From positions 1 to 29,016 of IMG/VR virus record IMGVR_UViG_3300018067_000024: a stretch of 29,016 bases of DNA; one strand, 5' to 3'. The position numbers and the translations under genes were made by a program. The DNA is from a virus. The first letter of the stretch is position 1. Every line of letters starts with the position of its first letter. A model generated the notes under the pieces. It was not told where the DNA came from. It did no database searches and was given only the letters and a program-made list of their open reading frames with translations. This document shows, piece after piece, positions 8,933 through 26,679 of this stretch.

Positions 8933-9329
8933 TCTTCAACCCAACTATGTAAGACTTGTGCGTCTGTAGTGTGCTGACACCTTCGATGTCTTCGATGGTT
9001 AGTATACCATCCCGCATAAGCTGGAAGATTGCCTCGTCGCTGCGCACCTCGGTAGGAACAATGGTGAACACCAGTTCCTCAGGTATGCGCTTGCGCTTCA
9101 ACAATGCCTTCAGCGATTCGTTGTTCCAGATCTGCGTAGTACCCTGCCGCTTTTGCCACTTGGTACCAGTTTCAGGGTCTACGACGTCTGTAAGGTTGCG
9201 TCTTTCGTAGTAGGATATGACTGCTGCGTTGATGTTGTCTATACTGCGAGTAAGCTTCTTTCGCTTCTCGTCCAGGGTAAACCTAAGACGCAACCAGCCT
9301 AGTAGCTCGGCCCGATCCTTGACTTTCAC
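8901..9329 (-). CDS. Hypothetical protein in helicase operon
   Basis: 142 residues from a GTG at 9329, inside the last 47 bases of the helicase gene; a TTG further in is a weaker alternative. The N-terminal part is a basic helix (L-R-F-T-L-D-E-K-R-K-K-L-T-R-S-I). A middle segment follows with D-P-E-T-G-T-K-W-Q-K-R-Q-G and W-N-N-E-S-L-K-A-L-L-K-R-K, then I-V-P-T-E-V-R-S-D-E-A-I. It is soluble, with no Cys cluster. It is co-directional with the helicase and presumably co-transcribed, so a replication accessory role is possible. I do not recognise the family. Confidence 0.65.
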   Translation of the reverse strand: MKVKDRAELLGWLRLRFTLDEKRKKLTRSIDNINAAVISYYERRNLTDVVDPETGTKWQKRQGTTQIWNNESLKALLKRKRIPEELVFTIVPTEVRSDEAIFQLMRDGILTIEDIEGVSTLQTHKSYIVGLKNATGHDDQED

Positions 9330-10812
9330 GTATAATCTCTAGCTCCATTTCTGCGTAGGCTTTTCTTCTTTCGTACCACTGGCTAACGAGGACCCTCGGG
9401 ACATCCACGTAATCGCGGACGATAACGTCTCTCTTTCTGGGATGGACACGTTGAATTCGTCCAACTTGCTGCGCAATCTTGCCTTGAGCCCGCGAGGGAA
9501 ACACAAGGTGGAGTCTGTCGAGCCTTGGGATATCCAATCCCTCATCTGCCAGTTTTGTTCCAAATAGAACGCGCAAAGTGCCTTCTCTAGCTGCTGAGAT
9601 AGCCCCTTGCCTTTCTTTCTTTGTACGGCTAATATTGCGTGTGACACGTCCATAGCTATCCTTTTTAGTTCCTCCGGCGATAAGGAGCTCTTGGGAAATG
9701 TCAGGCCGACGCGACCTGAGAGTGCTTGCCAGGAGTGCGAGGTGGTCGATTTGCTGAGATAGGACAAGTTGGACGTGGTCGCCGCTGTCGTGGTCTGCGA
9801 TGATGTTCTCGATGATCTGGTCATTCCTTCGTCTATCATTGATCAGAGAACGCACCATATTGTGCCATTGGCGCATGTTAGTATAAGGGTAGTTGAACCC
9901 TGTGTCGTGGACCATCACGACAGGGTCTACAATGAGTCCTGCGCGCTTTAGTGCCCTACGCTCGACCTTTGCTATTACCGGCCCACAGATGGCGTACAGA
10001 AGCCCTTGCAGATTGTCTTCTCGTCTGGGGGTAGCCGTGGCTCCAAAGCGGTAGTACGCGGGAAACTGCGTCATCACTTCTTGGAAGCACTGTGCGGGAC
10101 AGTGGTGTGCTTCGTCCAGTATGATGCATCCCCACATGTTCACAAACTCAGGAGTAAGCTCTCTACGCGCCAGCGTCATTACACTAGCCAGCGTGATTTG
10201 CTTTATATCGTAGACATCCCCTTGGATAAGTCCGGGTTCATAGCCAAGAAGATCGCGGCAATAATCTTGCCATTGCTTGAGAAGATCATCTGTATGAGCC
10301 AGAATGATTGTGGGCTGTCCAAGCTCCGCAACGACATATAGCAGCATGACCGTTTTCCCAGAACCGCATGGTGCCTCGAGTACACCCTGATGTCCATAGT
10401 CATCATGCAATAGGTCCCGAACCGCAGGTTTCTGCGGTTCCCATAATTCTATGTCATGGGGTAGTGGCTTGGGATCGAACGTAACACGCAGGTCTTCCCA
10501 CTCTACGTCAATCTCTAGCTCATTGCACAGCTTCTCAAACTCGGGAACAAACTCTCTCGCGATGTAGTATCCAGACCCGTCTTCACTTGTCTCGATCCCA
10601 TATATGTATCGCGGGAGTTCATTCCATGTACCTGAACTCTTGTTGTATGTGCTGGTGCTCAGTTGTCTAAAAACGCGGTCTTTGTATTCGGGATTCTCCC
10701 ACGTTAGGTGCGACATGAGTGTCTGGTATAATGGTCGCGGTATCTCGTCTCTTGGGACGAACAGTCTTCCCCCAACCGTCGCATGGATGATTTGCCTAGA
10801 TTGTCTGGCCAT
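9283..10812 (-). CDS. SF2 DEAH-type helicase (XPB/UvsW-like)
   Basis: 509 residues. I start at the ATG at 10812 (M-A-R-Q-S-R-Q); the longer frame would use a TTG that is part of the promoter -35. An N-terminal domain of about 130 residues resembles the XPB-type damage-recognition region. Then come Walker A A-P-C-G-S-G-K-T (about 147-154), motif Ia I-L-A-H-T, DEAH at about 233-236, motif III F-G-A-T-A-T-P-R-R, motif V F-G-T-K-L-A-D-E-G-L-D-I-P and motif VI Q-Q-V-G-R-I-Q-R. These are all motifs of an ATP-driven SF2 helicase. In phages such enzymes remodel forks and recombination intermediates, as T4 UvsW does. It heads a minus-strand operon with its own promoter. Confidence 0.88.
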   Translation of the reverse strand: MARQSRQIIHATVGGRLFVPRDEIPRPLYQTLMSHLTWENPEYKDRVFRQLSTSTYNKSSGTWNELPRYIYGIETSEDGSGYYIAREFVPEFEKLCNELEIDVEWEDLRVTFDPKPLPHDIELWEPQKPAVRDLLHDDYGHQGVLEAPCGSGKTVMLLYVVAELGQPTIILAHTDDLLKQWQDYCRDLLGYEPGLIQGDVYDIKQITLASVMTLARRELTPEFVNMWGCIILDEAHHCPAQCFQEVMTQFPAYYRFGATATPRREDNLQGLLYAICGPVIAKVERRALKRAGLIVDPVVMVHDTGFNYPYTNMRQWHNMVRSLINDRRRNDQIIENIIADHDSGDHVQLVLSQQIDHLALLASTLRSRRPDISQELLIAGGTKKDSYGRVTRNISRTKKERQGAISAAREGTLRVLFGTKLADEGLDIPRLDRLHLVFPSRAQGKIAQQVGRIQRVHPRKRDVIVRDYVDVPRVLVSQWYERRKAYAEMELEIIRESQGSGRATRLVAS

Positions 10813-10825
10813 TGGTGTACCTTTT

Positions 10826-10854
10826 ATTGTAGCAAACCAAATGTCCCGTAGCAA
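10826..10854 (-). promoter_or_regulatory. Promoter of the SF2 helicase operon
   Basis: On the minus strand: TTGCTA (10849-10854), a 17-bp spacer ending in GTTTGC, then TACAAT (10826-10831). The predicted start is about 10819, leaving a leader of only six or seven bases before the ATG at 10812, with AAAGG partly upstream of it. It is back to back with the plus-strand promoter at 10912. Confidence 0.75.
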
Positions 10855-15959: not shown

Positions 15960-17069
15960 ATGACGCAAATGGTTGATCGTGAAACGGCGCTGCAGACGCT
16001 CCTACCCTTCAGTGGGCTTGAGGAACGCCAGTTTGCCCCAGACGACAGCTATGGATTGCAGACGGGCACAAACGGCAAAGTTCAGTATCGGTTCGGTAAC
16101 AAGGACGACGTGTTGCCTCTTGGGCCAGGGGCATGGGACACGCTGTTCCGAGTTAGCGGCTTGCAGACGAACAGCATGCTCAAGTTCATGGGTACACCAG
16201 CGCAGGAGCACGTTGTAGGTCTGTTGGATCACGCATTCCGAGAGCGCCAGGGCAATCTAAAGGCGCTAACCCGTGATGGTGAGATCCAGGCCATCATCGA
16301 TGGCAGGGTCGAAGTGCGTGACCCCGTAGACTACATGCGCACGGCAGAGCGGGCAATGGGTGGCCGTCGGCATGTCAAGGGCTACAAAGTCTGGGGTACT
16401 CAGGACCGCCAGTATATCTCATTGGTCACTGATAAAGAGATTAGCATGGGTGGCCGCGACTACCAGCGTCTCGAAGGTGGTGCCCAGGGAGCTAAGGTCA
16501 ACGACGTCGTAGCGAGCGGCGTGCAGTTGTACATTAGCCCATACGGGTACAGTGCCCCAGGTGGTACCGGACTCGGTCTAGACCTCTCGGGATACTGGGA
16601 GCGCCTGCTGTGCACCAATGGCATGACCAGTACCCAGAATGTCATGCATTTCACCAAGCGGGCAGATGAGTCGGACGACAAAGAGTGGATCACCACTAAC
16701 GTGCCCACCATCCTCAACAAAGTTGAGACGGAGGTTGATCGATTCAAGGCGCTGAAGGATGTGGCGGTCGGGCAGCATACCGACGAAGAGCTTGCGGCCA
16801 TGCTGCAAGACTTTGGCATCCCGCCCGTTGTACGGGACATGATCCGCAACAGGCTGGTCAACCATCCTGTGGAGAACCTGTATCAGTTGGCTAACCACGT
16901 GACCTACGTGGCCTCCAACTACAGCAGGGTCTTGGAGGATCCCTCCCTGGTACGGCGGCTGATGCGGGTTGGCGGCAACATCGTTCAGCACCACAGCATC
17001 TGCGAAACCTGCCATCGCGTTATGCCCAAGCGTGAGCGGCGGCGCGTGGCGGCTTTGCAGGAGGCGTAA
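15960..17069 (+). CDS. DUF932-like phage protein
   Basis: 369 residues from the ATG at 15960; an ATG three codons later is also possible. The central part carries V-Q-L-Y-I-S-P-Y-G-Y, G-T-G-L-G-L-D-L-S-G-Y-W-E-R-L-L-C-T-N-G-M. That matches the DUF932 pattern in which an N-S-x-x-G stretch leads to R-L-V-C-x-N-G. The C-terminal region ends with H-S-I-C-E-T-C-H-R-V-M-P-K, a possible metal site. DUF932 proteins are frequent in plasmids and phages near recombination and ssDNA genes, and their function is unresolved. It lies next to the SSB and DUF5679-like genes, and is transcribed with the latter. Confidence 0.6.
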   Translation: MTQMVDRETALQTLLPFSGLEERQFAPDDSYGLQTGTNGKVQYRFGNKDDVLPLGPGAWDTLFRVSGLQTNSMLKFMGTPAQEHVVGLLDHAFRERQGNLKALTRDGEIQAIIDGRVEVRDPVDYMRTAERAMGGRRHVKGYKVWGTQDRQYISLVTDKEISMGGRDYQRLEGGAQGAKVNDVVASGVQLYISPYGYSAPGGTGLGLDLSGYWERLLCTNGMTSTQNVMHFTKRADESDDKEWITTNVPTILNKVETEVDRFKALKDVAVGQHTDEELAAMLQDFGIPPVVRDMIRNRLVNHPVENLYQLANHVTYVASNYSRVLEDPSLVRRLMRVGGNIVQHHSICETCHRVMPKRERRRVAALQEA

Positions 17070-17138: not shown

Positions 17139-17561
17139 GTGGCAACACCAGAAGATATGATTCGTGTTGAGATCAAACAGGGTTGGCTGCTTGACCAGTT
17201 CGCAGAGCATGTACTAGGGCTAAACCCGGAGGAAGAGGCATACGAGACACAGTTATGGCTAGGTGAGCTCAACCTCGACTTTGCTTCAGCACTGGTAAAG
17301 TACGATGCGCTGGTACAGCAGAAGAACCAGCAGTACGGCGATGCATGGCAGAAAGACGGACCAGTTACGTCCCTGGTAGATCTCAAGGATAAGCTGTATC
17401 GCTTGCAGTCTGCTGGCGACAGTGGGGCCATCCTTACCTGGGACGTAGACAAACTCAGGGGTACTCTGTACGACATACTGGTGCGCAGCCTTATGATACT
17501 GTCCTGGTTCGAACTCAACTTTGATGATGATGACGATGAGAGAAAAAACGGGAGTGACTAG
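17139..17561 (+). CDS. DUF1599/Nmad1-like protein (nucleotide-modification-associated domain 1)
   Basis: 140 residues from a GTG at 17139 with GGAG eight bases before it. The core reads K-N-Q-Q-Y-G-D-A-W-Q, S-L-V-D-L-K-D-K-L-Y-R-L-Q and L-Y-D-I-L-V-R-S-L-M-I-L-S-W. This is the all-helical pattern of DUF1599 (named Nucleotide modification associated domain 1 from its frequent neighbourhood with DNA base-modification genes). The C-terminus is a short acidic tail (D-D-D-D-D-E-R-K). The stop overlaps the next start (TAGTG), so it is translationally coupled to the deoxyribosyltransferase-like gene. The fold call is a pattern reading; the biochemical role of the family is unclear. Confidence 0.55.
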   Translation: MATPEDMIRVEIKQGWLLDQFAEHVLGLNPEEEAYETQLWLGELNLDFASALVKYDALVQQKNQQYGDAWQKDGPVTSLVDLKDKLYRLQSAGDSGAILTWDVDKLRGTLYDILVRSLMILSWFELNFDDDDDERKNGSD

Positions 17562-18103
17562 TGATCATCAGACCGTATACATCGGGCACTATGCAAGTAG
17601 GTTGGCGCGATGAACTAGAAACCAAATACAAAGATATCATCCGTGAAACTATCGCAGCCAAGTGGTCCACCATCAAAGTTCCAGCGGATTATAGTCGGCC
17701 TCGTCAAGACATTGATCACCTGCTTGGTCGCGTGGTTTGGCTACATCCTCGTCCCCCGGTTTCTGTTCGAGATGGGGATCGTGCCGCCAGAGCTGGCTTT
17801 TACATTCCTCGCAACCTACGTCTTATCCACGATTGTGACTTTGTGCTTTCTTGCATCTACCCGACATACCCATCCATTGATTCTGCTCATGAAGTGGGGG
17901 CCGCTTATGCTTGGGGTAAACCTGTTGTCACTGTGGATCTCACGGGCGGCGCTGGAGATTATGCAGCATGGCGGGCAATGAGCCTGGTGGTACTCGATAG
18001 CATTGATGCCGCTGCTGACTACCTGCTGTATCAGGTTCAGGATAACGATGACCTAACGGCGCAGTTGAGCCAGAACACGGTAGGTGATAAACTACCCGTA
18101 TGA
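17561..18103 (+). CDS. Nucleoside 2-deoxyribosyltransferase-like protein
   Basis: 180 residues from a GTG at 17561, overlapping the previous stop, with ACGGGAG upstream. It starts with M-I-I-R-P-Y-T-S-G-T-M. The second half carries the most diagnostic stretch: N-L-R-L-I-H-D-C-D-F-V-L-S-C-I-Y then D-S-A-H-E-V-G-A-A-Y-A-W-G-K-P-V-V. In nucleoside 2-deoxyribosyltransferases the equivalent E of 'x-E-x-G-x-A-x-x-x-G-K-P-V' is the catalytic nucleophile, so the Glu of A-H-E-V-G is the candidate. The enzyme would transfer deoxyribose between bases or cleave nucleotides. Next to base-modification genes it may supply or remove a modified nucleotide. It could also be a related TIR-like or MazG-associated hydrolase. 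Confidence 0.65.
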   Translation: MIIRPYTSGTMQVGWRDELETKYKDIIRETIAAKWSTIKVPADYSRPRQDIDHLLGRVVWLHPRPPVSVRDGDRAARAGFYIPRNLRLIHDCDFVLSCIYPTYPSIDSAHEVGAAYAWGKPVVTVDLTGGAGDYAAWRAMSLVVLDSIDAAADYLLYQVQDNDDLTAQLSQNTVGDKLPV

Positions 18104-19554
18104 GATTCCTGGTAATTGACTTTGAAATCATCGAACGCGGTGGGATAAACCGCATTGTCGAAGGATTGCAGTATGGTCTAGAAGCTATCGGGTGCACGTT
18201 CGATTACTTTTGGGCCAGTAAGGCCGGCAGGGTACGCAGCCTAAGCCAGACGGCCCCTACGATGGTCAATAGCAGGTACTACCGCTTACCTGCTAAGCAA
18301 CTACCGTACCGTGGCGATGAGGCGAGGAGGCAATATCGTACGCTCTTGCGCGACTACGATGTTGTCATGTTCATGTTGCCATGCCCGCACGATATCAAGA
18401 GCAATACCGGGGATATGTCGTGGATGATGTTGTATCAGGAGGCCGCGGAGGCGGGGCTTCCGATTATGGTGATGATCCACGACAACCTGTGGGACACCTA
18501 CTACCCGTGGTATCGCCAAGTATCGGACTTGGTGAGCCTACACATGTTTACATGTTATCAATCCAAATACGACTCCCTGGCGCGTCTGCCCGGACACTTC
18601 GTGTTTCTGCCCACCCCGTTGGACGTCAGTCAAGCGGCTTTGTACCATCCAGAGAAGACTGGATCTATTTGCTGGATGCCGCAATGGAAGAAGTGGAAAG
18701 GCATCTATCCTTTCATTAAGGCACTGCCACAGATAGAGCACCCTGTCGATATGTACAACGCCGGGATCGAGTACCACAATGCGCGGAATAAAGTGGGGGC
18801 GGGTTGGAAAGATGGCATCGGCCTCGACCATGTTGGTCGCCGTCGTGGCCGTGGGCGACCTGATCACCAATATTGGGGAGCACAATTACCTGCCGAGCTG
18901 CCTGGGATTTATCGTAGGCACAATATCAGCGTGGATCTTAGCGGTTCTATTGGTGGGCAAAGATTCGACGGACAGACATCCTGTGTTATGCTTGAGGCCA
19001 TGCTGTACGGTTGCGTTTCGGCCGTTAGCACAAGGGTTCAGGAGCACCGATGGAGTCCCCTTTCCCAAGCCGATGTTACTTGGGGACTGCCCCCTTCACC
19101 TGACGGAATTGCAGAACGACTTAATGAACTGATGGCAGACACGCGCCTTCAAGCGCGTATAGCTTACAGGGCATTGGAGTTTGTACGGGAGTATAGCGAT
19201 GCTAGGGTTCACGCGGAAACAATCCTCGATCACATCCAGAATCGAGAAGCATATGGACATACGCCTGGCATTGTTCTTCCTGGTTTCTGGGATACTGTGT
19301 GCGATGATCCCGTTCCTGAAGTCATACTGTCTGAAAGACAAGACGAGTACGTCTCAAAGAACACCGCAGCCGTTGCCGTCCTGGGCTCAGGGGTAGACGA
19401 AGAGGAGCTAGACGAAGAGGCGCAGGAAGAAATTGCGGCTATGGGCAACGAAGCCTTACTGCAAGTCTTATCCTCACCACCATCAACGCCAGATGGGCGT
19501 TGGATCAAGTTTATCAGTGGCGTGGCACGGGCTTGGTTGGAGGCCTTCGAATGA
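18100..19554 (+). CDS. GT-B glycosyltransferase (GT4-like), candidate DNA glycosylation enzyme
   Basis: 484 residues; the ATG overlaps the upstream stop (ATGA). The N-terminal Rossmann half has E-R-G-G-I-N-R-I-V-E-G-L and D-Y-D-V-V-M-F-M-L-P, and then I-M-V-M-I-H-D-N-L-W. The C-terminal half carries L-D-L-S-G-S-I (from V-D-L-S-G), then T-S-C-V-M-L-E-A-M-L-Y-G-C, whose E-A-M-x-Y-G-C is the usual nucleotide-sugar-binding helix of GT4 enzymes. A long acidic C-terminal tail follows (D-E-E-E-L-D-E-E-A-Q-E-E). No membrane segment is visible. The gene lies in an overlapping chain with the radical SAM enzyme, so glycosylation of a modified DNA base is an attractive inference. Glycosylation of a protein or cell-wall target is the alternative. 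Confidence 0.7.
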   Translation: MRFLVIDFEIIERGGINRIVEGLQYGLEAIGCTFDYFWASKAGRVRSLSQTAPTMVNSRYYRLPAKQLPYRGDEARRQYRTLLRDYDVVMFMLPCPHDIKSNTGDMSWMMLYQEAAEAGLPIMVMIHDNLWDTYYPWYRQVSDLVSLHMFTCYQSKYDSLARLPGHFVFLPTPLDVSQAALYHPEKTGSICWMPQWKKWKGIYPFIKALPQIEHPVDMYNAGIEYHNARNKVGAGWKDGIGLDHVGRRRGRGRPDHQYWGAQLPAELPGIYRRHNISVDLSGSIGGQRFDGQTSCVMLEAMLYGCVSAVSTRVQEHRWSPLSQADVTWGLPPSPDGIAERLNELMADTRLQARIAYRALEFVREYSDARVHAETILDHIQNREAYGHTPGIVLPGFWDTVCDDPVPEVILSERQDEYVSKNTAAVAVLGSGVDEEELDEEAQEEIAAMGNEALLQVLSSPPSTPDGRWIKFISGVARAWLEAFE

Positions 19555-20552
19555 TTCCGCAGTACGCACCAGTAGATCTGCGCACCAAGATCCTCAGCTT
19601 CAGAAAGGATGCAGTCAGGCTAAACCGTGGAGAGATGGTTGCCCCCACGATGGCTATTGTATATCCTACATATAGCTGCAATATGCGTTGCTTTGGCTGC
19701 ATCTCTAACGCTGAGAATGCACACCCTGCTAGTCTTGGCGTCGATCTCTTTGATGATTTCGTTAGTGACTTTAGCCAGATGGGCGGAGAGTCGTTGGAGT
19801 TTTCGGGAGGTGGTGAGCCCACTCTACATCCTAAGTTTGGTGACCTTATCGCTTCTGTTGCTCGGCGCGATCTACAGTTCGGAATGATTACGAACGGAAC
19901 CAAACCAGATGTTTGTGGGATTGCTTTGGCTTACCCTGGAACTCGCTACCTACGCATCAGTGTTTATACTGTTAACCAACTTGAACACGTTAGACGAATT
20001 AGTCAGAAACGTGATGCTCTTGGTTCTACTTGTCGCATTGGTGGGAAAATCCTGCTTGGCAGCAGCAGCGTTCCAGCGCTCAAATTCCTTACGGAGGAGA
20101 TACTAGATGCAGGTGTCGACTTCGTCAGCATCAAAGCTAAGCGGCACTGCGCAGATGATCCTGAGGGGCTACCTGAGGATAGCAAGCAGCATCTTGAGGC
20201 TACCCTTCAAGAGCTTAGAGATAGATGGCCCGGAAGAGTATTCGGTGGTATCACTAAGACTCACCAAGTTGGAACCTGCTGGCTCTCACCGCTACACACT
20301 GTGGTCGACGCACTTGGCATCGTGTGGGTGTGCTGTTACTATCAGGACCGAGTTGAGGATATCAGCATCGGCAGGCTTTCCGATGTTGCGGGAGGAAAGT
20401 TCCGAGATCTTTGGTATTCGCCCGCACACCGTGCCGCCATGCAAAGAGTTATCATTCCGGAGTGCGACTTCTACGACTGCCGATTTCATGTATATCACGA
20501 CGTGATGAACGAAGAGCTCAAAGATGATGCCTCCCATCTCGCATTCATATAA
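19551..20552 (+). CDS. Radical SAM enzyme with SPASM/twitch-like C-terminus
   Basis: 333 residues from the ATG at 19551, which overlaps the glycosyltransferase stop (ATGA); a longer upstream frame is not used. The 4Fe-4S motif is C-x3-C-x2-C in Y-S-C-N-M-R-C-F-G-C (Cys43, 47, 50). The SAM-binding G-G-G-E-P-T follows at about 86-91. The C-terminal 120 residues contain G-T-C-W, W-V-C-C-Y-Y, P-E-C and Y-D-C-R-F, which fits an auxiliary cluster domain, and an R-L-S-D...L-W-Y-S motif typical of SPASM proteins. Radical SAM enzymes act in thymidine hypermodification of some phages. The substrate here is unknown. Confidence 0.8.
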   Translation: MIPQYAPVDLRTKILSFRKDAVRLNRGEMVAPTMAIVYPTYSCNMRCFGCISNAENAHPASLGVDLFDDFVSDFSQMGGESLEFSGGGEPTLHPKFGDLIASVARRDLQFGMITNGTKPDVCGIALAYPGTRYLRISVYTVNQLEHVRRISQKRDALGSTCRIGGKILLGSSSVPALKFLTEEILDAGVDFVSIKAKRHCADDPEGLPEDSKQHLEATLQELRDRWPGRVFGGITKTHQVGTCWLSPLHTVVDALGIVWVCCYYQDRVEDISIGRLSDVAGGKFRDLWYSPAHRAAMQRVIIPECDFYDCRFHVYHDVMNEELKDDASHLAFI

Positions 20553-20562
20553 CCCGGAGAAA

Positions 20563-21468
20563 ATGGATGCGTTCTGGAACTTCGTTGTAGAAAGACAGTC
20601 TGTATATCACAAGCGTATGGTACTTGGAGAACTTCCCCCATGGACACAGGATCCAGTGTTGCGGCAGTACTTCTTCACCAATGTGTACCGTGAGCTTGAC
20701 AAGGGCACTGTCTTCCTCATCCGCAACATACTGCGGATACAAGACGACAAAGACATGCTGTTCGCCATCATGGTGTACAGGCTCTTTAATGACATAGATA
20801 CCTTCAGGTTCCTGTGGCTGCGCTGCAAGCAAACCCGTTGGGGAGACTGGGATTGGGAGCGTGCGGCTCGGTACCTGGTGGCCTATGAGAACCACGGTAA
20901 TCGTGTATTCACAGATGCCTTTACGGTTACAGGCGTAAAGTTTGGCGGGTTTCCAGACAAAATCAGGAACATCTGCTGGCTGGTAGGCAAGCTGCAACGC
21001 CAAACCCCCGTACTGCTAGAGAGTATCAAGTCTGCGAGGTCTCTGAAACGTGTATGGCAAATCTTCAATGACACAGAAGGATTTGGACGTTTCCTGGCCT
21101 ATGAACTCGCAATTGACGCTAATTATAGCAGACTCATTAACTTTAGCGAGAACGATTGGGTCAACGCAGGACCTGGCTGTAAACGTGGTATCCAATGGAT
21201 CTGGGGTGACCGTGACTCTGGTCACAAGTGGGAGGAGTATATCGTATATCTTCAGGCTAGACAGCGAGAGCATATCGAGCGAATTGGACGCTATGAAAGA
21301 TGGCTTGAAGTCTATCCTGGTTATGACATGACCCTGCGCGGCGTAGAGCACTCCCTGTGTGAGTTTCAGAAGTACGCCCGTGCTCGGTACCATGCTAATC
21401 CTGATGGTACGCCTAGTCGCTCGGCTACGCGCAAATACACTCAACAACTACAACCTGCACTCGTGTAA
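20563..21468 (+). CDS. aGPT-Pplase2/5-hmdU DNA kinase helical-domain protein (DNA base hypermodification)
   Basis: 301 residues. I start at the ATG at 20563 (M-D-A-F-W-N-F-V-V-E-R-Q), which has CGGAG just upstream and lies after the radical SAM stop; the longer frame begins at 20524. The helical family signature is strong: E-R-Q-S-V-Y-H-K-R, P-P-W-T-Q-D-P-V-L-R-Q-Y-F-F-T-N-V-Y-R-E-L-D-K-G-T, then M-V-Y-R-L-F-N. Later come G-F-G-R-F-L-A-Y-E-L, A-G-P-G-C-K-R-G and a C-terminal G-V-E-H-S-L-C-E-F-Q-K-Y. This matches the alpha-glutamyl/putrescinyl-thymine pyrophosphorylase clade associated with hypermodified thymidine in phage DNA. No P-loop is visible, so it is unlikely to be the kinase itself. 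It ends the five-gene cassette. Confidence 0.75.
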   Translation: MDAFWNFVVERQSVYHKRMVLGELPPWTQDPVLRQYFFTNVYRELDKGTVFLIRNILRIQDDKDMLFAIMVYRLFNDIDTFRFLWLRCKQTRWGDWDWERAARYLVAYENHGNRVFTDAFTVTGVKFGGFPDKIRNICWLVGKLQRQTPVLLESIKSARSLKRVWQIFNDTEGFGRFLAYELAIDANYSRLINFSENDWVNAGPGCKRGIQWIWGDRDSGHKWEEYIVYLQARQREHIERIGRYERWLEVYPGYDMTLRGVEHSLCEFQKYARARYHANPDGTPSRSATRKYTQQLQPALV

Positions 21469-21488: not shown

Positions 21489-21875
21489 ATGCAGGCTTTG
21501 CTAGGCGCGCTGATGGCTCTAGGTGTAGCGACCTCGTCCATGGCAGCCGAACAAGAGACATTGCGTGTCAGGGTTACGTTCTATACCCTTCGCGGCACTA
21601 TGGCTAGTGGATCTTATACGCATAAAGATGCAGCAGCATGTTCAGATTGGCTACCTATGGGGACGAAGCTGATGTTCCCGGATGGCTGGATTGTGACGTG
21701 TCTAGACCGGGGCATGGGCGACATTATATGGAACGCCCGCCGTACTGGACACGATGCCTGGGTAGACGTTTGGGCACCCTCCTATGCCTGGGGCATAAAG
21801 AACGTTGAGAGTGATTACGGGCAGACCACCCAGATGCAGATGGTACGGTGGGGGTGGGGTGATGCCGACTCCTAA
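21489..21875 (+). CDS. Secreted 3D/RlpA-like double-psi beta-barrel protein
   Basis: 128 residues from the ATG at 21489, with no ribosome site. The first 20 residues (A-L-L-G-A-L-M-A-L-G-V-A-T-S-S-M-A-A) look like a signal peptide. The mature part has T-F-Y-T-L-R-G-T-M-A-S-G, A-A-A-C-S-D-W-L-P-M-G-T-K-L, V-T-C-L-D-R-G-M-G, D-V-W-A-P-S-Y-A-W-G and M-V-R-W-G-W. That order is typical of 3D and RlpA-like double-psi barrels, which bind or cut peptidoglycan. The D-V-W-A-P-S motif is the most diagnostic. Its role may be in wall remodelling on entry, release, or superinfection. It is downstream of the modification genes but has its own promoter. Confidence 0.65.
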   Translation: MQALLGALMALGVATSSMAAEQETLRVRVTFYTLRGTMASGSYTHKDAAACSDWLPMGTKLMFPDGWIVTCLDRGMGDIIWNARRTGHDAWVDVWAPSYAWGIKNVESDYGQTTQMQMVRWGWGDADS

Positions 21876-22074: not shown

Positions 22075-22330
22075 GCACTGCGAAACTTACCTGATGATTG
22101 GTGCAGAGTCGGTTAGTCACCAGAACATGGTACGCACTTCTCAGTTGTGTACCGCGTGCTCACAGTGGAACTATATCGACGAAGATCTTCGGATTGTGCA
22201 CTCCCCGTCATGTGCAGTGAAGACCGGAGAAATGGTAAAATTGGCTATGGGCGGATCGCAAGCCAGGGGTACCGTAGTTCCTGATAGAGATGCTACGCAA
22301 GAAGAAGCTGCTGCGTGGCCGCATGTCTAA
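22037..22330 (+). CDS. Small zinc-finger-like protein (start uncertain)
   Basis: 97 residues from a GTG at 22037; the frame is open from an ATG at 21938, but the added N-terminus looks like a shadow of the other frame. The core is P-P-G-K-I-W-C-K-H-C-E-T-Y-L-M-I-G and L-C-T-A-C-S-Q-W-N-Y-I-D-E-D, two C-x2-C pairs about 27 residues apart, as in a small zinc ribbon. The tail is soluble with V-V-P-D-R-D-A-T. Its stop overlaps the start of the DNA polymerase gene by eight bases, consistent with translational coupling. The function is unknown; zinc-ribbon proteins near polymerases are frequent in phages. Confidence 0.5.
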   Translation: MHADAPPGKIWCKHCETYLMIGAESVSHQNMVRTSQLCTACSQWNYIDEDLRIVHSPSCAVKTGEMVKLAMGGSQARGTVVPDRDATQEEAAAWPHV

Positions 22331-25300
22331 ATTCGTTCATCTGCATACCCACACTGAGTATAGCGTGCTAGACGGCTTAGCACGCATACCCGATCTGGTT
22401 GACAAGGCGAAGCGTGATGGGCAACAGGCACTCGCAATTACAGATCATGGACGCATGTCTGGAGTTCCTGAGTTTTACCAGGCATGCCGAAAGGCTGATG
22501 TTCGGCCTATTGTTGGACAGGAATTTTATCTTTGCGATGACTGTTCCGACCGCACCCGGACCATCGACCCAGAGACTGGTAAGAAAGAAGGCCCTAGGCG
22601 GCACCATCTGGTACTCTTGGCTCGAGACAGACGTGGGTATGAGATACTGTGCGAGCTTAGCAGTACCGCGAACGATCCTAGCCACTTTTATTACAAGCCT
22701 CGTATTGATTACGGTACGCTGGAAGCTCTATCAAGGAAAGATAGACGCCATCTTATTGCCAGCTCAACTTGTCTCAATGGGCCAATACCTCAGCTCATTC
22801 TCGCAAACAAAAATGGCTCAGCGCTCGAACTAGCCCAATACTTCCGAGAGCTTTTCCCGTACTTCTATCTTGAACTACAGCGCCACGACTACAACCAGAA
22901 GAAACAAGGCGACCGCAGGGCTAACGCGGACCAAGAGAAGGTTAATGACAAGCTCATCAGATGGAGCGAACGATACGGATTCCCATTGGTCATCACCAAT
23001 GATAGCCACTACGTTGAGCCAGCCCATCACTCCGTACATGACATCTGGTTGGCGTGCCAGACAGTATCGTTATGGCGGGATGCGACCCGGTTTCGCTTTG
23101 ACGGTTCAGGATATCACCTCAAGACAACTAGGGAAATGCGAACACTCTGGGCGGATAGACCTGAGGTATGGGCAGCTAGCCAGCGAACTATCCAGGCTTA
23201 CACAGCAGATATACAACTCAGTATCCCAGAGTTGGAACAGCGAAGCTGGCACATCCCAGTGGCACCACGAGCAAACACAGAGATATCTTCTGCTGACTAT
23301 ATGCGCCAGATCTGCGTCAAAAGGCTGCGAGTGCTGGAGAGACGTGGAGGGCTGGCCTCTTCTCCTGATGTATACCGGGATCGCCTCGACTACGAACTCG
23401 GGGTCATCACAGGCAGTAAATTTGAGGAAGAATTCCTTATTGTCCGTGATTACATCAATTGGGCTAGGGATCATAACATTCGGGTTGGTCCTGGCCGTGG
23501 CAGTATGGCAGGGGTTCTCGCAGCCTATCTTATGGGCATTGTTGACGTGGACCCTGTGCGCTTTGGTCTTATGTTTGAGCGTGCTCTCAATCCAGCGCGC
23601 CCGTCGCTTCCGGACTTCGACGTAGACTTTCCCAACAGCAGGCGTATGGATGTGGTGAGGTATCTGCTAGACAGATACAATAAGCCACCATATCAAGCAC
23701 AGCAGGTGGGGACCTTCTCCAGAGGTGGGCCGCGCAGCACTGTTCAGCGTTTGCTTAGTGCACTGGACTTTACCAGGAGTGAACAGTTCTCGGCAAGTAA
23801 GTCTTTGCCAGATGCAGCACTTATTGTCAACCTCAAAGCCAGCGGCGACCTGAAAGACCTGTTGCAAGACGAACATCTGCACCCCGTACTAAAAGGGGCT
23901 ATGGTTAGCTACCCCGCGTTTTATGATTGGGCTACGACGTGTCAGGACCTTATCACGGGCGAAGGTAAGCACGCCGCTGGCATAGTAATTGCCGACGAAC
24001 ACTTCGACCTGCAAAAGCTAGTGCCGACTATGATGGTGGGACGTGGGCAGGGAAGAGGTCAAGCGGCAGTAGTAACTCAGTATGATATGGAGGGTCTCAA
24101 ACGCCTGGGTGTGGTGAAGTTTGACATCCTAAGCCTTACTACCTTGGATGTCATACAAGACTGCATCGAGCTTATCGGGGAAGATCCGTTCGAGGACATG
24201 TATGAGTACGAAGACGAAGCGGTTTGGGCCACTCTCAATCGAGGTGCCTGCTCAGGGGTATTCCAAGTTGAAGGTGGTACTTCCCGGCAGGTTGTTAGAG
24301 ATCTCCAGCTCCAAAGCTTCGAAGACCTTATTGCTGTCATGGCCCTCGGGCGTGGTGGTGCTAACCAGTTCGTCAGTGCCTACCGGGAAGGTCGTGACGG
24401 CGGTACTGCAGACCTCCGGAGAAAGCTCCCAGACAGAAGGCTACGGCGCATACTTCCCCAAGGCGTTGTCCTTTACCAGGAACAGGTTATGGAGATTGGA
24501 CTTCAAATCGGAGGGTTCGACCACCATCTTGTAGACGAACTGAAGGAAGCCATCAAGTATAAGAAGGGGGATATATGGGACGAACTCAAGCCACTTTTCT
24601 TCAATGGGGGCGAACTCTACGACAAGCTCAGTGGCAAATCCAAGGGAGCCGCCCTGGGCGCGCTGAACAACGGGTGCAGCCAGCAGGTAGCCGACCAGAT
24701 TTGGGAGATGATTTGGAGCTACCGAGGGTACGGTTTCAACCGGGCACACGCTACCGCGTATGCGATGATAGCGTATCAGACAGCGTGGCTCAAGACACAC
24801 TATCCTGCTAACTTCTTCTGCACGCTACTGAGCTACGCTAACAAAGACGATTACCCCGTGTACATTGATGAAGCCAAGCTGTTCTTTGGTCTGCGCTTCC
24901 TACCCCCGGATGTGAATAAGTCAGGTTCAGGATTTGTCGTAGAAGGTAAGCATGGCATACGATACGGCCTGACTGCTATAAAAGGGTTAGGTATTGCGGC
25001 CTGCACGGAACTGGTGGAGAACAGGCCGTTCACCTCGGAGGAACACTTGGTCAAGACAGTAACTAAAAGGAGGTGCAACGTTAGAATCATCGACCTGCTG
25101 CGTCGCGTTGGAGCGATGGAAAGTATTGGCACGCAGGGAGATGAAGACCGTGGTAAGACAGAGCTTGAGCTCTTAGGCACATATGTAACTACTCATCCGA
25201 TTGACCAGTACAGAGCCGCACTGGACAAGAAGATCCGCCGACAACTGAACCTTAAAGCACTTACGTCTTCGCAAGATAAGTGGGTCTGGGTTGGCGGGCA

Positions 25301-25526
25301 GGTAGATCGGGTTAGAGAGATAACCACCAAGAACGGTTACAAGATGGCCTTCGTTCAGGTAAAGTATGAAGGGTTGGGATCTTGGGACGTAGTTGTGTTT
25401 CCCGAACGATGGGAGCAACATGGCCCGCACCTGTTCAAAGGACGCGTCGTCATGGTGTACGGCAAACGGCAAAATGACAGAAACAGCATTGTCTTTGAAG
25501 AGGCGAAATATCCGGTCCCAGCGTGA
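22323..25526 (+). CDS. dnaE: DNA polymerase III alpha-type (DnaE-like) replicative polymerase
   Basis: 1067 residues. I choose the ATG at 22323 (M-S-K-F-V-H-L-H-T-H-T-E-Y-S); the longer frame from 22290 adds a Lys-rich lead not seen in the family. Domains in order: PHP with V-H-L-H-T-H and I-T-D-H-G-R plus D-S-H-Y, apparently with intact metal ligands; polymerase palm with G-P-G-R-G-S-M-A-G and P-D-F-D-V-D-F (Asp431 and Asp433) and a third Asp in V-V-K-F-D-I-L (Asp601); then F-Q-V-E-G-G-T-S-R, Y-Q-E-Q-V-M-E-I, G-F-N-R-A-H-A-T-A-Y and a C-terminal OB-like part. It has the size of a short DnaE. This indicates the phage copies its own genome. Confidence 0.9.
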   Translation: MSKFVHLHTHTEYSVLDGLARIPDLVDKAKRDGQQALAITDHGRMSGVPEFYQACRKADVRPIVGQEFYLCDDCSDRTRTIDPETGKKEGPRRHHLVLLARDRRGYEILCELSSTANDPSHFYYKPRIDYGTLEALSRKDRRHLIASSTCLNGPIPQLILANKNGSALELAQYFRELFPYFYLELQRHDYNQKKQGDRRANADQEKVNDKLIRWSERYGFPLVITNDSHYVEPAHHSVHDIWLACQTVSLWRDATRFRFDGSGYHLKTTREMRTLWADRPEVWAASQRTIQAYTADIQLSIPELEQRSWHIPVAPRANTEISSADYMRQICVKRLRVLERRGGLASSPDVYRDRLDYELGVITGSKFEEEFLIVRDYINWARDHNIRVGPGRGSMAGVLAAYLMGIVDVDPVRFGLMFERALNPARPSLPDFDVDFPNSRRMDVVRYLLDRYNKPPYQAQQVGTFSRGGPRSTVQRLLSALDFTRSEQFSASKSLPDAALIVNLKASGDLKDLLQDEHLHPVLKGAMVSYPAFYDWATTCQDLITGEGKHAAGIVIADEHFDLQKLVPTMMVGRGQGRGQAAVVTQYDMEGLKRLGVVKFDILSLTTLDVIQDCIELIGEDPFEDMYEYEDEAVWATLNRGACSGVFQVEGGTSRQVVRDLQLQSFEDLIAVMALGRGGANQFVSAYREGRDGGTADLRRKLPDRRLRRILPQGVVLYQEQVMEIGLQIGGFDHHLVDELKEAIKYKKGDIWDELKPLFFNGGELYDKLSGKSKGAALGALNNGCSQQVADQIWEMIWSYRGYGFNRAHATAYAMIAYQTAWLKTHYPANFFCTLLSYANKDDYPVYIDEAKLFFGLRFLPPDVNKSGSGFVVEGKHGIRYGLTAIKGLGIAACTELVENRPFTSEEHLVKTVTKRRCNVRIIDLLRRVGAMESIGTQGDEDRGKTELELLGTYVTTHPIDQYRAALDKKIRRQLNLKALTSSQDKWVWVGGQVDRVREITTKNGYKMAFVQVKYEGLGSWDVVVFPERWEQHGPHLFKGRVVMVYGKRQNDRNSIVFEEAKYPVPA

Positions 25527-25541
25527 GAGTTGGAGGTACTA

Positions 25542-25937
25542 ATGCTACTAGATTTTCTCAAGAAAAGGGGCGCTCCGCAACTACATCGATGCTTCACGTG
25601 TCTGGAGCCCCGTACCGAAGAGCAACTACGGAAGGTTGTCTATGAGGTCGAAGTCTGCCACCACTGCACCACCACAACTAACGGAAGTGCAGACGATTTT
25701 GCAGAAGAGATTCGGGAAGGAAGTGCTCTTCCGCGCATCGGACCCGAGGTTCCAGATCCGGAGAATCTCGACCGGGATTTTGACCCTGGACTTTTTGTTG
25801 GGTGGCGGGATCGCATTGGGGCGTATAACCGAGTTCTACGGCCAGTATGCAGCCCTGAAGAGTCATGCCTTGTACAGGACGATAGCTCTGGCTCAAGCGG
25901 CGGGACTCAACTGCGCCTTGATGGATGCGGAGCATAG
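25542..25937 (+). CDS. Small zinc-finger ORF overlapping recA
   Basis: 131 residues from an ATG at 25542 with a strong ribosome site (TGGAGG). The first 45 residues contain L-H-R-C-F-T-C-L-E-P-R-T and V-E-V-C-H-H-C-T-T, two C-x2-C pairs. The remaining about 85 residues lie over the start of recA in another frame and are Asp/Glu/Pro-rich with little apparent structure. The recA frame is clearly the conserved one there. The true protein may be only the first part with a later extension, or the overlap may be real. No function can be assigned beyond probable zinc binding. Confidence 0.5.
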   Translation: MLLDFLKKRGAPQLHRCFTCLEPRTEEQLRKVVYEVEVCHHCTTTTNGSADDFAEEIREGSALPRIGPEVPDPENLDRDFDPGLFVGWRDRIGAYNRVLRPVCSPEESCLVQDDSSGSSGGTQLRLDGCGA

Positions 25938-26679
25938 TTTTGATCCAGTACACGCCACACGTCTTGGAATCAACCTTGCCGACCTCACTATGGTTGGCAA
26001 TCTGGATTCGGGCGAAGAGATTATCGATGTGGGCGAGGCACTGATTCGTTCAGGTAAATTCGATGTGGTGGGCGTTGACAGCATAGCCGCGCTAGTACCC
26101 AAAGACGAGCTAGAGGAAAGCGCAGAAGCTGCCCAAATGGGTAAAATGGGTAAGCTTACTAGCAAAATGGCGCGCAAGTGGAATGCCGTCAACAACGGTC
26201 AAACCGCTGTTGTCTTGATAAACCAGGTGAGAGAGAATGTAGGCGTCCATTATGGCAACCCCGAGAAACCAGTGGGAGGACGTGCGTTCGGTTTCTTTGC
26301 TAGTCAACGTGTGGATTTCCGTAAGGGTGAGGCAATCAAGGGAAAGACCCGTCGAGTCGAAAATGGCAAAGTCGTTGAAAAGGATGGTACCGTCGGTCGT
26401 GTTGTGCGAGTCCGAGTGGAGAAGGACAAGACTGGAGCAAACGCAGAGCGTGACGGGAGCTTCCGATATCTCTTTGCCGTGCGTGCAGTGGATAAACTTA
26501 GCGAACTCTTGCAACTAGGTCTGGAAGTAGGGTGCATCGAGCAGTCTGGCCTCCGGTACAGTACCCGCTGGACGGAACCTATGATGCGTACTGCTTTCTT
26601 GAATGCCCTGGGGCGAGACCCAAAGCTAGCCAGGACACTAGAAGCAGCAGTGAAAGTGAGGGGGAGTAATGCCGATTGA
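25642..26679 (+). CDS. recA: RecA/UvsX-like recombinase
   Basis: 345 residues from the ATG at 25642, which has GGAAGG seven bases upstream. RecA landmarks: I-S-T-G-I-L-T-L-D-F-L-L-G-G-G, then the ATP loop G-Q-Y-A-A-L-K-S (67-74), M-D-A-E-H-S-F-D-P (catalytic Glu97), V-D-S-I-A-A-L-V-P-K, V-L-I-N-Q-V-R-E-N-V-G and F-G-F-F-A-S-Q-R-V-D-F-R. The Walker A loop has Leu where RecA normally has Gly before Lys, as in T4 UvsX (S-F-K-S). Core residues for strand exchange otherwise look intact. It would drive recombination-dependent replication and repair with the SF2 helicase and SSB. Confidence 0.88.
   Translation: MRSKSATTAPPQLTEVQTILQKRFGKEVLFRASDPRFQIRRISTGILTLDFLLGGGIALGRITEFYGQYAALKSHALYRTIALAQAAGLNCALMDAEHSFDPVHATRLGINLADLTMVGNLDSGEEIIDVGEALIRSGKFDVVGVDSIAALVPKDELEESAEAAQMGKMGKLTSKMARKWNAVNNGQTAVVLINQVRENVGVHYGNPEKPVGGRAFGFFASQRVDFRKGEAIKGKTRRVENGKVVEKDGTVGRVVRVRVEKDKTGANAERDGSFRYLFAVRAVDKLSELLQLGLEVGCIEQSGLRYSTRWTEPMMRTAFLNALGRDPKLARTLEAAVKVRGSNAD

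Follow-up and report, generated by a model that had tools for sequence, protein, structure and literature searches.

Thymidine hypermodification in phages has so far been known mainly as a pathway for adding amino acids. Its M6/YuA-like form was reportedly described by Lee et al. in 2018 and 2022. The M6-like cluster of Sphaerotilus phage SN1 encodes an amino acid:DNA transferase (ADDT), a pyridoxal-phosphate (PLP) enzyme, a radical SAM enzyme, a P-loop kinase of family PF18748 for 5-hydroxymethyldeoxyuridine (5-hmdU), the HMUDK_hel protein, Nmad5, and a hydroxymethylase of the thymidylate-synthase (TS) type. Here, we analyzed a block of five genes, A to E, confirmed at 17139-21468 and all on the + strand, in virus record IMGVR_UViG_3300018067_000024. 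The window is this entire record of 29,016 bases, which is a genome fragment with no larger contig behind it. The lineage of the window has a TS-type hydroxymethylase, HMUDK_hel, and a radical SAM enzyme in common with SN1. By contrast, no P-loop 5-hmdU kinase, ADDT, PLP enzyme, or Nmad5 was found in it; it carries a GT4-like glycosyltransferase (GT), a nucleoside 2-deoxyribosyltransferase (NDT)-like gene, and gene A, and its radical SAM enzyme belongs to another family.

We consider it likely that the block is the late part of a glycosyl-5-hmdU DNA hypermodification pathway, in which glycosylation takes the place of the kinase and amino-acid arm and the sugar is tailored by the radical SAM enzyme. 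Like many IMG/VR contigs, the cultured Brevibacterium phage LuckyBarnes combines a dUMP-type TS, GTs (two in this phage), and HMUDK_hel and has no PF18748 kinase. However, its GTs are of the TET-associated glycosyltransferase (TAGT) family, different from that of C, and its annotated stretch lacks gene A, a radical SAM enzyme, and an NDT-like gene. A sugar-carrying base replaces thymine in SP-15 of Bacillus and YerA41 of Yersinia, whose genomes both hold GT genes (PMC5977210, PMC9023294). These are different phages with different chemistry, and the likeness is one of description, but they make the idea of a glycosylated thymine chemically plausible. We found no described example of a radical-SAM-tailored glycosyl-thymidine as a DNA base. 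The parts are of known kinds; their combination, and the general rule proposed below, is undescribed in the literature and records that we found, though central pathway papers may partly hold the rule.

The order and strand of the five genes were identical in all relatives spanning the region. One contig matched the window at 97-100% protein identity and several at 56-85%; the most divergent (G006, 27 kb, locus L029) shared 36-60% (A 53%, B 36%, C 55%, D 60%, and E 38%). Retention of order and strand down to this level of identity indicates that the block is more than a chance arrangement. A and B share 1 base (TAGTG), and B and C overlap by 4 bases (ATGA). C and D also overlap by 4 bases given a D start at ATG 19551, and 10 bases separate D from E given an E start at ATG 20563. 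These are most likely the true starts from sequence, and a D start near 19551 was seen in several relatives; the longer mechanical open reading frames (ORFs) open at 19500 (TTG) for D and at 20524 (ATG) for E. Given the shorter starts, the five-gene chain with stop/start overlaps described in an earlier, sequence-only reading of this DNA holds in both coordinates and junctions. The overlaps are not fixed in the lineage, since ~240-260 additional bases lie between cassette genes at L005:2166-2426 and L025:11456-11691 (one between B and C, the other between C and D). Searched with tblastn against 50,697 phage records, A, B, C, and D had zero matches, consistent with the earlier statement that no cassette with exactly this set had been described. 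E had 448 matches in the same records, every one below 60% identity. Viral scans with alignments of C and D found nothing beyond the known lineage, and a bacterial-genome scan with D gave no match.

Gene E (20563..21468, + strand) encodes HMUDK_hel, the proposed 5-hmdU-in-DNA recognizing and presenting protein, which matched PF18723 at 245.5 bits (E 9e-73, cut-off 25). The sequence-only reading had called this an aGPT-Pplase2 protein with the helical domain of a 5-hmdU kinase; the domain was right, but the family carries the aGPT-Pplase1 annotation in other phages, not Pplase2. The predicted fold of E (model pLDDT 79) lies nearest to helix-hairpin-helix 8-oxoG glycosylases and the PaMx11 5-PmdU glycinyltransferase, and E scores 14.7 bits, sub-threshold, against the ADDT model. 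Taken with the weak ADDT match, these fold neighbors, none of them significant, suggest a DNA-base-handling fold.

Gene C (18100..19554, + strand, 484 aa) fell below all Pfam cut-offs when searched alone (PF13524, E 0.008). However, a wider C-family profile matched PimA (E 5e-4) and other GT4 structures, and family members matched the GT4 Pfam domains Glycos_transf_1 (to 5e-10) and Glyco_transf_4. On the strength of these profile and member matches, C is classed as a GT-B, GT4-like enzyme, and the earlier GT-B call, weak for C alone, becomes clear with the wider family. An AlphaFold2 model of C with six close homologues reached pLDDT 42 and was not used, and the assignment rests on the family profile. 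The TAGT model (PF20691) had no match in lineage records G000, G002, G005, and G006, with LuckyBarnes, Alakazam, and Mercedes as positive controls. Within HMUDK_hel loci, the scope of this count, distant C homologues (~19-27% identity) adjoined HMUDK_hel and the hydroxymethylase in six other lineages: L101 (two homologues in tandem), L144/L189, L174, L193, L225, and L237.

The first step of the proposed pathway is encoded in three relatives, G002, G005, and G007, as a TS homologue that lies 10.8 kb downstream of E in G002 and presumably just past the fragment end in the window's phage. Its matches in phage records include gp29-type proteins of SPO1 and SP8 (34-35% identity over the core), and the SPO1 gp29 record is annotated as a dUMP hydroxymethylase. 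Aligned to E. coli ThyA, the three TS proteins have Cys146-Asn147 and Asn177 and lack Trp80, as does SPO1 gp29. By contrast, ThyA has Cys-His and Trp80, and T4 gp42, a dCMP hydroxymethylase, has Cys-Thr and a Tyr at 177. We used these residue signatures because a TS tree was not decisive, with ThyA and T4 gp42 on very long branches. From the active-site signature we infer 5-hmdUMP as the product, and almost every TS gene from other HMUDK_hel loci carried the dUMP-hydroxymethylase signature. In Microbacterium phages Golden, Alakazam, and Mercedes (L071, L072, and L073), HMUDK_hel occurs with a TS of T4 gp42-like signature (Cys-Thr, no Asn177), accompanied in Alakazam and Mercedes by TAGT glycosyltransferases, so judging from sequence HMUDK_hel may also serve 5-hmdC. 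A 189-aa gene between cassette and TS in G002 (L010:12324-12893), kept in G005 and G007, matched the phrog_757 DNA methyltransferase family (E 2e-62). Carboxymethylcytosine systems (PMC12783734) were considered for this gene, but nothing else fits them.

The kinase and amino-acid steps, however, were not detected. Neither the P-loop 5-hmdU DNA kinase model (PF18748; SN1, SBSphiC, phiD3, and Kevin positive) nor the ADDT model (PF18724; SN1, phiD3, and Kevin positive) matched anything in G000, G002, G005, G006, or G008. Two of these records, G002 (90,615 bases) and G005 (90,205 bases), are circular permutations of one another, which is why we regard both as nearly complete. Scanned for Walker A motifs in every frame, they yielded no kinase-like P-loop ORF, only helicases, a RecA ORF, and apparently chance frames. 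The sequence-only reading had placed all early steps elsewhere in the genome. This stood for the hydroxymethylase, found in relatives with a dUMP-type signature. It did not stand for the 5-hmdU kinase, because none was detected in the ~90 kb genomes and none was ever near loci with both HMUDK_hel and a GT.

This last point comes from a survey of IMG/VR, in which two scans with divergent HMUDK_hel alignments contributed their best 80 loci each, giving 159 distinct locus ids, with a few contigs present in both scans. Survey ORFs were searched with profiles for kinases, ADDT, TS, TAGT, C, D, A, B, and extra families. A kinase and a GT occurred together within 6 kb of HMUDK_hel in none of the 159 loci. 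After clustering at 90% identity (116 clusters), 39 clusters had a kinase alone, 51 a GT alone, 26 neither, and 0 both (p ~1e-13). ADDT and a GT were likewise never together in these clusters (ADDT alone, 27). The kinase/GT contrast was also present in the first scan by itself (p 0.002) and after clustering at 60% identity (p 0.0014), where two clusters were mixed because sister loci differ. In a profile-free check, a small P-loop ORF near HMUDK_hel was missing in 78 of 84 GT loci vs. 5 of 43 kinase loci. Among the six GT loci that did have one, two shared a single APS-kinase-like gene, being the overlapping loci L144/L189, and in another it was the truncated RecA ORF of L092.

The sister loci themselves look like swaps of kinase and GT one for the other. 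L098 and L099 carry a GT and a radical SAM enzyme, whereas L100 has a radical SAM enzyme, ADDT, and kinases in place of the L098 genes; similarly, L237 has a GT and L242 a kinase. The L098 locus (L098:5199-10108) comprises a SPASM radical SAM gene, a 272-aa gene, a 305-aa gene, HMUDK_hel, and TS. Its 272-aa gene was counted as a GT in the survey, though it has no assigned family and is GT-like by eye only.

Gene D (19551..20552, + strand, 333 aa), the proposed sugar-tailoring enzyme, is a radical SAM protein with a SPASM-like C-terminus. As the earlier reading had called it, D matched PF04055 (38.9 bits, above the cut-off of 29.5) with an invariant CxxxCxxC motif (CNMRCFGC); several C-terminal cysteines are also invariant, and SPASM PF13186 scored 18.8 bits, below its cut-off of 21.5. 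The best solved match of the D profile was DesII (E 6e-8), over residues 31-229 and extending past the core, with cytosylglucuronate decarboxylase matched weakly lower in the list. Still, D is not a member of the DesII equivalog TIGR04426 (33 bits vs. a cut-off of 450). The L098 radical SAM enzyme is of another family than D, and its best solved match was BtrN (E 7e-6); DesII and BtrN are thus the nearest solved relatives of D and the L098 enzyme, respectively, and both are radical SAM enzymes acting on sugars or cyclitols. A relative of the L098 enzyme occurs in L162/L194, so that a radical SAM enzyme, a GT, and HMUDK_hel come together in three lineages. Whether D itself acts on a sugar is, on these matches, perhaps an even call. 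A parallel in support of sugar tailoring is the gene row at L144:120-4031 (IMGVR_UViG_3300033143_001775). There, a C-family GT and a PIG-L deacetylase-like gene precede HMUDK_hel, which is followed by an APS-kinase-like gene, a gene of 206 aa resembling a sulfotransferase by eye, and the hydroxymethylase. This locus might place on DNA a sugar that is both deacetylated and sulfated.

Gene B (17561..18103, + strand, 180 aa) lies just below the cut-off for Nuc_deoxyrib_tr PF05014 (27.0 bits, E 5e-6, cut-off 28.8), and its profile weakly matches YtoQ, an NDT, and DNPH1. Given this borderline score and the invariant Ser105 and Glu111, B is placed by sequence in the NDT/DNPH1-like superfamily, in agreement with the earlier NDT-like call, and is a probable N-glycosidase of nucleotides. 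MilB, an NDT-type N-glycosidase (MilA being a TS-family hydroxymethylase; PMC5175136, PMC4081090), has the same spacing at Ser97/Glu103 and hydrolyzes hydroxymethyl-CMP (PMC4081090). Trimming of the nucleotide pool by B would be a guess. Nothing was found in support of the base-exchanged variant suggested from sequence alone. Gene A (17139..17561, + strand, 140 aa), a small conserved accessory protein by its synteny in all spanning relatives, matches no Pfam family. The earlier DUF1599/Nmad1 label was dropped, since PF07659 gave no match at E ≤ 0.001 in four lineage records or in any A-family member. Homologues of A lie directly downstream of HMUDK_hel in L123, L154, and L114, which links A to the wider system.

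In the scheme that we favor, the dUMP hydroxymethylase would make 5-hmdUMP, which would be built into DNA in place of some or all of the thymine. E would then recognize and present 5-hmdU in DNA, and C, standing in for the P-loop kinase partner of M6-like phages, would add a sugar to the 5-hydroxymethyl group. D would alter this sugar, either on the nucleotide donor or on DNA, B would probably act as an N-glycosidase on pool nucleotides, and A would be an accessory protein. The purpose would presumably be protection from host nucleases. The sequence-only reading had also proposed a base hypermodification cassette, with a sugar-bearing variant among its options; our results support such a cassette, probably a sugar-bearing one. 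We also propose, with slightly more doubt than confidence, that HMUDK_hel is a general 5-hmdU-in-DNA handling subunit, rather than a kinase part as such, that serves either of two exchangeable chemistries, direct glycosylation or a phosphorylation route to amino acids, and that this lineage makes a radical-SAM-tailored glycosyl-thymidine.

Gene content, synteny, the hydroxymethylase signature, the lack of a detectable kinase or ADDT, and the kinase/GT alternation are all read directly from sequence, but several points weigh against the favored scheme. Its whole chemistry is something we infer. The TS was observed in relatives alone rather than inside the window, and it is distant from the cassette here while adjacent in most other loci. 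The fold match of E lacks a significant E-value, and we treated its coherent top hits as a hint. The link of D to sugar enzymes consists of partial profile matches, several other NCBIfam radical SAM families score alike over its core, and B has no clear role. The kinase/GT contrast was gone at 40% clustering, where merged clusters contain both kinds of locus, and we therefore make the claim per locus and at 90% and 60% clustering. Moreover, each scan ranked loci by their likeness to a single E protein, that of the window (GT type) or that of SN1 (kinase type), which enriched both kinds of locus, and clusters are not independent.

One rival is the classical route, in which a host or unrecognized kinase would phosphorylate 5-hmdU together with E, D would isomerize what is attached, in the manner of M6-like phages, and C would contribute another group. 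In SN1 and Bacillus phage SBSphiC, a P-loop kinase lies next to HMUDK_hel or is fused with it, radical SAM enzymes are part of M6-type clusters, and the PF18748 model misses divergent kinases, some HMUDK_hel phages having no match to it. However, we judge this route unlikely given two ~90 kb genomes with no kinase by profile or Walker A and no ADDT, the rarity of small P-loop ORFs in GT loci, and the fact that D is not of the M6-type radical SAM family seen in the survey. Lipids and surface glycans are substrates of GT4 enzymes, PimA among them, and C and D, perhaps with B, might instead modify host-surface or particle glycans, with only E and the distant TS in DNA modification and an incidental neighborhood. 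PimA is indeed among the nearest solved matches of the C family, and the block sits inside a longer co-directional run, which makes adjacency alone weak. Yet the C family adjoins HMUDK_hel and TS in the six other lineages, and gene order is kept to 36-60% identity. In many other HMUDK_hel loci, moreover, the equivalent GT position is filled by TAGT, a phage-DNA glycosyltransferase family (PMC13390438), leaving the glycan explanation quite unlikely.

A very improbable option is a mildiomycin/blasticidin-like route, in which the hydroxymethylase, NDT-type N-glycosidase, GT, and radical SAM enzyme would make a small free nucleoside rather than modify DNA. MilA and MilB provide the precedent, B retains the Ser/Glu spacing of MilB, and the D profile weakly picks up cytosylglucuronate decarboxylase. 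Against this, E is present throughout and its family is linked to DNA modification in phages, the TS signature is of the dUMP type, and GT, HMUDK_hel, and TS occur together in many phages without B or D.

Under the glycosyl-5-hmdU reading, thymidine hypermodification should have a widespread sugar branch. Its mark in gene content would be HMUDK_hel with a GT and a dUMP hydroxymethylase but no kinase, and it would reach cultured phages, where it is directly testable. HMUDK_hel, whose name marks it as a kinase domain, would gain a function outside kinases that can be tested. Should D indeed modify a sugar attached to DNA or destined for it, this would be new enzymology for making and labeling DNA. 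Restriction, CRISPR, and sequencing are all affected by sugar-modified phage DNA.

The co-directional run holding the block, with gaps of 69 bases before and 20 bases after it, belongs to a replication region. Upstream lie a helicase on the opposite strand (9283-10854) and genes for DnaB, primase, and initiator- and SSB-like proteins; DNA polymerase III alpha (22290-25526) and RecA (25636-26679) follow downstream. No gene of the region is better conserved than the one just 5′ of the cassette (15960-17069), at 92% identity to G002; its product weakly matched a PHROG of no known function and nothing more strongly. Right after E, 21489-21875 encodes a 128-aa protein with a signal-peptide-like start and no Pfam match, which shares 46-85% identity between relatives.

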